Source: Thiobacillus sp. 0-1251 (GTDB lineage Bacteria; Pseudomonadota; Gammaproteobacteria; Burkholderiales; Thiobacillaceae). From it: a stretch of 64,000 nucleotides of DNA. The notes under the pieces are model-generated. The model did no database searches. It was not told where the DNA came from and saw only the letters and a list, made by a program, of their open reading frames with translations. How positions within the stretch are numbered: position 1 is the stretch's first letter; the number at the start of each line of letters is the position of its first letter. The stretch lies in NCBI GenBank assembly GCA_001899305.1, contig MKWL01000011.1:62001-126000 (forward strand), given 5' to 3'. Below are positions 46,365 to 46,968 of the stretch, piece by piece. The translations under genes and the position numbers were made by a program.

Positions 46365-46820
46365 TCAGGCCGCGTGCGCGTACTGCGTCTTGGCCTTGCG
46401 GGCCGCCCCGATTTCCTCGGGGCCGTAGGCCTTGCCGGACCACAGCATTTCGTAGGCGATCTCCTCGTTGCCGTTTTCACAGAGATCCAGCACTTTCTGG
46501 AACAGCGGCTGGAAGGTTTCGGAACGATGCGATCTCTCGTGGTTCTCGAAATCGGTCCAGAACGTCACGATCAAGGCTTCCTTGCCTTTCATCGGGCTTT
46601 CGACAGCCTGGCCGATGGTCGAGCCTTCATTCGACACTTGGCCGGAATTCAGGGCGACGAAACCGCCGACGAAACCGGTATCGGAATGGTAGGTTTTGAC
46701 GTTCTCACACAAAAACGCCACCCGTTCCTGCAAGTCGTCCACCGTGTATTCCGGTTTCAGAACCACCCGGTTGACTGTCACGATACCGTCGGTCGGAAAA
46801 TTAGCGATCAATCCACTCAT
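46365..46820 (-). CDS. Short sulfur oxygenase reductase (SOR)-like protein
   Basis: The 151-residue cytoplasmic protein resembles the first half of sulfur oxygenase reductase. GFVGGF follows Cys38 by about ten residues, as GFVGF follows Cys31 in the archaeal enzyme. VTFWTDFENHERSH gives His94 and His98, matching the YTFWxxxxDHxxxH iron ligands. Glu120 or Glu124 lies near the distance of the third ligand. Cys-to-His spacing is 56 here and 55 in SOR as I recall it. True SOR is about 310 residues, so this is half-length and perhaps dimeric. AGGAG precedes the ATG. A general ABM-type dimeric barrel is the alternative. Confidence 0.65.
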   Translation of the reverse strand: MSGLIANFPTDGIVTVNRVVLKPEYTVDDLQERVAFLCENVKTYHSDTGFVGGFVALNSGQVSNEGSTIGQAVESPMKGKEALIVTFWTDFENHERSHRSETFQPLFQKVLDLCENGNEEIAYEMLWSGKAYGPEEIGAARKAKTQYAHAA

Positions 46821-46968
46821 GGTTTTTCTCCTGTTGTAGAAGGGAAGTACTACGACTCCAGTCTACATACCTGAGTAATTTAGTCAACTAATTTATTTAA
46901 TTTATCTATGTGCCAATCATAATTTCTGATAATGATGCCCGGCCAGGCTGACCCTATGGATCAACAAA

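Follow-up and report, generated by a model that had tools for sequence, protein, structure and literature searches.

A remote, half-length relative of sulfur oxygenase reductase keeps the aligned catalytic positions and has an IscR-like promoter site in Thiobacillus

A 64,000-nucleotide stretch of the Thiobacillus sp. 0-1251 genome (contig MKWL01000011.1, positions 62,001 to 126,000; here called the window) encodes a protein of 151 residues that resembles the N-terminal half of sulfur oxygenase reductase (SOR), and in alignments the family to which it belongs keeps the iron-ligand and cysteine positions of that enzyme. We tentatively favour, at a little under an even chance, a model in which this one-repeat SOR relative is a homodimeric, mononuclear-iron sulfur (persulfide) oxygenase within an iron-sulfur stress regulon. 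A preliminary description of the window had proposed a half-length SOR-like protein, an interpretation that is supported in part. Its gene coordinates were borne out exactly, and every feature it had listed is present: Cys38, GFVGG (residues 49-53), TFW (86-88), the His94/His98 pair and a glutamate-rich end (Glu119, Glu120 and Glu124). The single repeat that it described agrees with the chain length and with one predicted beta-alpha-beta-beta-alpha-beta unit. The gene and the codons aligned with SOR catalytic residues are as follows.

46365..46820, minus strand: half-length SOR-like gene, 151 amino acids; open reading frame (ORF) with ATG start, stop codon included.
46707..46709, minus strand: codon of Cys38, aligned with the essential SOR Cys31; invariant (MAFFT, hhalign).
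46539..46541, minus strand: codon of His94, aligned with the SOR iron ligand His86 (HMMER, hhalign, MAFFT).
46527..46529, minus strand: codon of His98, aligned with the SOR iron ligand His90 (HMMER, hhalign, MAFFT).
46461..46463, minus strand: codon of Glu120, aligned with the SOR iron ligand Glu114 (HMMER, MAFFT).

In the SOR of Sulfurisphaera (StSOR) iron is reported to be held by His86, His90 and Glu114, and each of the substitutions H86A, H90A, E114A and C31A to abolish activity; the SOR cysteines are reported to lie 9.5-13 Å from the iron (PMC7398979). Cys38, His94, His98 and Glu120 were invariant in 154/154 distinct half-length proteins, of which 33 come from viral contigs and 121 do not. 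A joint MAFFT alignment placed Cys, His, His and Glu at these positions in the N-terminal halves (N-halves) of SOR in 8/8 cases (eight of nine full-length SORs, L223 being left out), a count that leans towards agreement because the SOR rows were aligned together with the family. Two further comparisons were independent of this alignment: hhalign matched Cys38 to the SOR cysteine and the two histidines to SOR histidines, while HMMER paired both histidines and Glu120 with SOR ligands and set Cys38 one residue out of register. The order and near-equal spacing claimed in the preliminary description held up, since the distances from Cys38 to His94/His98/Glu120 are +56/+60/+82 in 106/154 proteins (+50/+54/+75 in 28/154), against +54-55/+58-59/+82-83 in SOR N-halves (8/8). 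Of the glutamates it had put forward as candidate ligands, Glu120 aligns with SOR Glu114, whereas Glu124 varies.

The family comprises two subfamilies: A, with 68-100% identity to the window protein, and B, with 34-41%. Despite only ~31-38% identity between them, the four SOR catalytic positions are constant across both, and they are among 22 invariant columns in an alignment of 49 sequences (the window protein with 33 from A and 15 from B). Because it retains the functionally important residues, the half-length protein may well work like SOR. The match is incomplete: SOR Cys104 has no counterpart in the joint alignment, which counts against the favoured model, and Cys114, set on SOR Cys101 by both hhalign and MAFFT, lies at a different distance from the glutamate ligand (6 versus 13).

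Judged by sequence, the relation of the family to SOR is remote, and only a pooled profile stands clear of noise. For the window protein SOR was the top family both in Pfam (PF07682, E 0.048) and in NCBIfam (NF047630, SulOxRed, E 0.0041), the latter match joining residues 13-120 to model positions 5-107 of 308, the N-terminal third. The Pfam search had been proposed in the preliminary description; it put SOR first, but with a weak E-value and a score under the cut-off. Among the 49 family members 38 matched the Pfam model and 31 the NCBIfam model at E <= 1 (best 1.1e-4 and 1.4e-5, respectively). A profile of the same 49 rows, selected by hand from fetched sequences, found SOR 6m35 among PDB sequences at E 4.5e-6, with the next unrelated match at 0.01, and hhalign gave the SOR N-half a probability of 83 (E 8.5e-6) and the C-terminal half (C-half) 1.4.

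Several results of these searches weigh against kinship with SOR. The window protein scored 12.9 bits in Pfam and 16.2 bits in NCBIfam against curated cut-offs of 25 and 400; with both cut-offs failed and one repeat missing, the family is not SOR by membership. As a lone query against PDB sequences the window protein had SOR in fifth place, with an E-value no better than 1.3. The value of 4.5e-6 is a sum over two stretches, the better of which gives 2.3e-4 by itself. With subfamily A alone SOR came out at E 0.0029, not far from a spurious match to triosephosphate isomerase (0.019); with subfamily B alone no SOR appeared at E <= 1. Other barrel relatives were matched too, namely ABM (16/49 members at E <= 1, best 0.005), Monooxy_af470-like (10/49, best 9.8e-4) and the haem oxygenase PRK13315 (6/49, best 0.0044). 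Across 274 genomes of the class, PF07682 reported a single half-length gene at E <= 0.001 (G314, 17.1 bits, below the cut-off). In a tree of 77 thinned rows the half-length proteins and SOR N-halves stood at opposite ends of a very long branch, and the program warns on long branches; subfamily B and viral copies shared one branch (100/100).

Single-chain structure prediction (predicted local distance difference test score, pLDDT, 91.2) gave one ferredoxin-like unit with Cys38 in helix 1, His94 and His98 in helix 2 and Glu120 on beta-4. This predicted fold is a generic alpha+beta barrel unit and falls within the ferredoxin-like alpha+beta barrel superfamily, in which barrels are reported to form either from two separate chains or from a duplicated and fused one (PMC4835899). 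Fold comparison pulls away from SOR: the nearest solved structures were ABM-type barrels, and SOR was matched on its C-half, not its iron half. The protein could be a plain ABM-type dimeric alpha+beta barrel, an oxygenase or hydrolase acting on an organic substrate, with its SOR likeness due to a common superfamily only. While the fold fits this reading, a Pfam search with the window protein listed no ABM (PF03992) match at E <= 10, members matched ABM in 16/49 cases, and more weakly, against 38/49 for SOR, and the SOR catalytic set is invariant between two such distant subfamilies; we regard it as quite improbable. The preliminary description had held that a best match to a plain ABM or stress-response barrel family, together with His and Glu residues that do not cluster in the predicted structure, would tell against SOR kinship. 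On the best match the two approaches part, with SOR on top by sequence and ABM-type barrels nearest by fold.

In many bacterial carriers the gene seems to be controlled by IscR, the switch for iron-sulfur cluster supply. The promoter of the window gene contains the following elements.

46882..46887, minus strand: putative -35-like hexamer TTGACT, by reading the sequence.
46867..46891, minus strand: IscR type-1-like site TTAGTTGACTAAATTACTCAGGTAT, between and over -35 and -10, differing from the published consensus at 2 positions.
46860..46865, minus strand: putative -10-like hexamer TAGACT, by reading the sequence, 16 bases past the -35-like hexamer.
46828..46832, minus strand: ribosome-binding site AGGAG, by reading the sequence.

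An element covering -35 and -10 is conserved among the 164 upstream regions compared, also across genus boundaries. The reported IscR type-1 consensus is ATASYYGACTRWWWYAGTCRRSTAT, and in the P. aeruginosa isc promoter the site overlaps -35/-10 (PMC6599224). Because the site found here lies over the same part of the promoter, repression by cluster-loaded IscR is expected. The whole 3.66 Mb source genome contains six sites with <=3 mismatches to this consensus, compared with 0 for a reversed-pattern control. Besides the half-length SOR gene (2 mismatches), the genes that follow such a site are iscR (identified by TIGR02010), a cysE-like gene and those encoding a CGFS glutaredoxin, a DUF5619 protein and an ankyrin-like protein (named by eye). 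At <=5 mismatches a site was found in 40/84 non-redundant subfamily A upstreams (thinned from 163 sequences via shared 8-mers), versus 2/416 upstreams of other genes (54 loci), 1/1680 dinucleotide shuffles and 0/1087 other windows; at <=4 mismatches the counts were 35/84 versus 0, 0 and 0. All of these counts use the published consensus. A motif cut from the half-length gene's own promoter, and for that reason biased, matched in addition before a DsrC/TusE-family gene and folE2, two sites that come from this pattern only. The encoded DsrC/TusE-family protein (L231:1573-1902; G000:C15 near 19149) ends in TGCV and has a single cysteine near its end, and the DUF5619 protein (L241; site at G000:C1:656179-656203) has 139 residues.

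The extent of this putative control is limited, which also tells against the favoured model. At the 5-mismatch cut, 44/84 subfamily A upstreams had no site. Nor did any lie before 15 genes of subfamily B or 39 viral copies, where the best matches had 8-10 and 6-11 mismatches, respectively. The same holds upstream of a second half-length copy in the source genome. This copy (G000:C15:56827-57270; L166, L217) is 86% identical to the first, and its upstream region differs, resembling the one before a second T. thioparus copy (L061).

Control by IscR would be just as compatible with a function in cluster assembly. The protein might then help to assemble or repair iron-sulfur clusters, as a carrier of iron or persulfide or as a regulator, and its mononuclear iron site and Cys38 would hold iron and sulfur for delivery. 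This alternative, which we consider rather unlikely, accounts for the regulation equally well, with IscR-like sites also before the iscR, cysE-like and CGFS glutaredoxin genes, and it suits a protein that is small, stand-alone and extremely conserved. It does not sit easily with the closest relative by sequence being a sulfur oxygenase, nor with the distribution of the family.

An even sample of 274 genomes from the class contains 55 carriers of the half-length family: subfamily A is present in 40 (two by fragments) and subfamily B in 18, with both together in 3. The carriers are 34/60 among relatives, 32 of those 34 belonging to the genus (36 genomes, the source genome included), and number 8/299 in a sample of the phylum, where 5 belong to other classes. 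Subfamily A is retained by two genomes (G201, G314) that measure 1.0-1.1 Mb and are 96-99% complete. A scan of public genomes confirmed 373 relatives, for which details rest on the best 80; these 80 include Thiobacillus, Thioalkalivibrio, Sedimenticola and Chromatiales, and the best named match among them is T. thioparus DSM 505 at 99% identity. Contigs of a public metagenome-assembled genome titled Rhizobium sp. (JAIBEL010000045/46; L022, L062) bear copies of Thiobacillus type, which share 99% and 85% identity with the window protein; the bin is probably mislabelled. Plasmid and named-phage collections gave no match to the window protein.

Carriage goes together with sulfur-oxidation genes. 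dsrA was found in 49/55 carriers and 45/219 non-carriers (Fisher p 2e-21) and soxB in 50/55 and 63/219 (p 1e-17), the genomes in both tests not being independent. One or the other is present in 55/55 carriers, as compared to 71/219 non-carriers, and the 6 carriers without dsrA do not overlap with the 5 without soxB. The dsrA total of 94 comprises 87 above the cut-off and 7 fragments, the soxB total of 113 comprises 112 and 1 fragment. Several facts temper the association: the counts carry no correction for shared ancestry, dsrA and soxB co-occur in 81/94 dsrA genomes, and 45/94 dsrA genomes lack the half-length family. Because the genomes are not independent and the two genes co-occur, the carrier pattern marks 'sulfur oxidisers' and not one pathway. 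Cluster assembly is universal, and a role in it leaves the restriction to sulfur oxidisers unexplained. A haem-copper oxidase family gene, counted in carriers only, is present in 55/55, which makes oxygen use possible.

Full-length SOR above the cut-off was found in 9/274 genomes; the source genome has none by the same search, and 50/55 half-length carriers are without one. The two genes occur together in 5 of the 9 (G074, G102, G114, G185, G306), which argues that half-length and full-length SOR are not simple substitutes. One full-length SOR (L223:1246-2400; PF07682 E 9.5e-134) has an in-frame RRKFLKMTAMAAGG ahead of it, which resembles a twin-arginine translocation (Tat) export signal, and the enzyme is possibly exported. 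Another four (L224, L225, L226 and L227; PF07682 E ~1e-60 to 1e-64) form a divergent set with HExxH and GPEEP motifs, from four genomes of which three also have half-length SOR.

ORF clustering around 88 loci returned no neighbour widely common across genera, the largest other clusters being antisense shadow ORFs of the half-length gene. Among genuine neighbours the best was a protease, by eye DegP/HtrA-like, that lies 1.5-5.9 kb upstream in 5/25 subfamily A loci. With no widely common neighbour, genome context gives no direct tie to sulfur oxidation, a further point against the favoured model. In the window, an S24 peptidase of 120 residues (LexA/UmuD-like, PF00717; 46969-47331, minus) lies just upstream on the same strand and has little room for a DNA-binding domain. 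The lack of a widely conserved partner gene tells as well against a sensing or storage function for persulfide or iron, with no catalytic turnover. A sensor had been suggested in the preliminary description, and the small size of the protein and its IscR-type promoter site are in keeping with one; we judge it very improbable, given the invariant SOR catalytic set and a chain too short to hold an additional domain for DNA binding or signalling.

The family extends to viral contigs. Scanning IMG/VR by means of the family profile identified 39 contigs with a subfamily-B-like gene, encoding 33 distinct proteins. For 21/39 a nearby gene falls in a cluster represented by phage tail, baseplate wedge, single-strand-binding, DnaB-like helicase or exonuclease proteins, while the other 18 are viral by their IMG/VR label, apart from phage matches pooled over L175, L177 and L203. 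Searches of viral contigs with the SOR N-half alignment or the window protein confirmed no relative, so that the subfamily-B-like form is the only one found there, and named phage records had no match to two viral copies used as queries. Neighbour clusters on the 39 contigs were IscA-like (12), DsrC-like (9, within ~4 kb of the half-length gene), Rieske-oxygenase-like (9), IscU (4), glutaredoxin (4) and AhpC (3). The Rieske/ring-hydroxylating-oxygenase-like gene (L182:6352-7464 and eight more contigs) starts ~350-375 bases past the start of the viral half-length gene in 7 of 9 contigs. The IscU- and IscA-like neighbours would suit a role in cluster assembly. Iron-sulfur cluster assembly genes are, however, reported in marine viromes generally (PMC8940887), and the viral neighbourhood is for this reason weak evidence, suggestive but not specific.

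Taken together, these results are compatible with the favoured model of a homodimeric persulfide oxygenase. The 151-residue chain is predicted to be a single ferredoxin-like unit, and two chains would most likely pair into one alpha+beta barrel. Each chain would hold a mononuclear iron site of His94, His98 and Glu120, placed by alignment and invariance, with Cys38 carrying sulfane sulfur as a persulfide. Zero-valent sulfur or persulfide would probably be oxygenated, or otherwise processed, to sulfite with no need for an iron-sulfur cluster. Cluster-loaded IscR would repress the gene, and a shortage of iron-sulfur clusters would bring about its expression. The main sulfur-oxidation enzymes, such as reverse dissimilatory sulfite reductase, are rich in clusters, and a cluster shortage is when they would become limiting. 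A mononuclear-iron enzyme that could carry or detoxify sulfane sulfur fits derepression at a time when the cluster-rich enzymes cannot mature. The divergent viral form, several copies of which have DsrC-, IscU- or IscA-like genes nearby, may be used during infection. A more specific version, which we think unlikely, is an IscR-controlled, cluster-free bypass, in which a homodimeric 'half SOR' with two iron sites oxidises persulfide in place of the reverse sulfite reductase route, viruses carry their own copy, and the family retains the dimeric form that existed before duplication and fusion gave rise to full-length SOR.

If the protein does oxygenate sulfur, it would provide a model for the origin of SOR, would connect the homeostasis of iron-sulfur clusters with energy metabolism based on sulfur, and would add a new member to the sulfur genes of viral contigs. 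Among papers listed by full-text searches of the open-licence PMC library, with subscription papers and preprints outside the scope, no title or abstract opening described a half-length SOR family. Because SOR models fail on half-length proteins, inventories of sulfur-oxidation genes can easily miss them. A survey of 75 Thioalkalivibrio genomes, by similarity to and coverage of a full-length SOR query, is reported to have found SOR in only three strains (PMC6382920), and Thioalkalivibrio strains are among the best 80 of the 373 half-length matches.

Compared with known systems, viral sulfur auxiliary genes offer one parallel: dsrC and rdsrA are known from putative SUP05 phage contigs (PMC4164917), and DsrC-like genes lie near the viral half-length gene as described above, but the words 'sulfur oxygenase' are absent from the main text of that paper. 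A study of viruses of green sulfur bacteria is reported to include dsrC and IscU. The IscR regulon offers a second, the promoter site lying over -35/-10 as in P. aeruginosa isc and the local iscR gene carrying one itself. To our knowledge, no SOR-like gene belongs to that regulon. With the ABM/dimeric ferredoxin alpha+beta barrel superfamily (PF03992 kin; SnoaB 3kg0, PA0709, YgiN) the protein shares its fold and a similar chain length, and differs from it in the invariant SOR-type Cys/His/His/Glu set; the top fold match, SnoaB (3kg0), is titled a cofactor-independent oxygenase. With SOR it shares the His/His/Glu ligands, the essential cysteine, a GF motif and T-x-W in N-half order at similar spacing, together with a predicted ferredoxin-like unit. 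While SOR has ~310 residues in two repeats, forms a hollow sphere of 24 subunits and acts as both sulfur oxygenase and reductase, the half-length protein has one repeat, no C-half and no Cys104, and as an oxygenase it would, as far as we know, be unusually small for an SOR-type enzyme.
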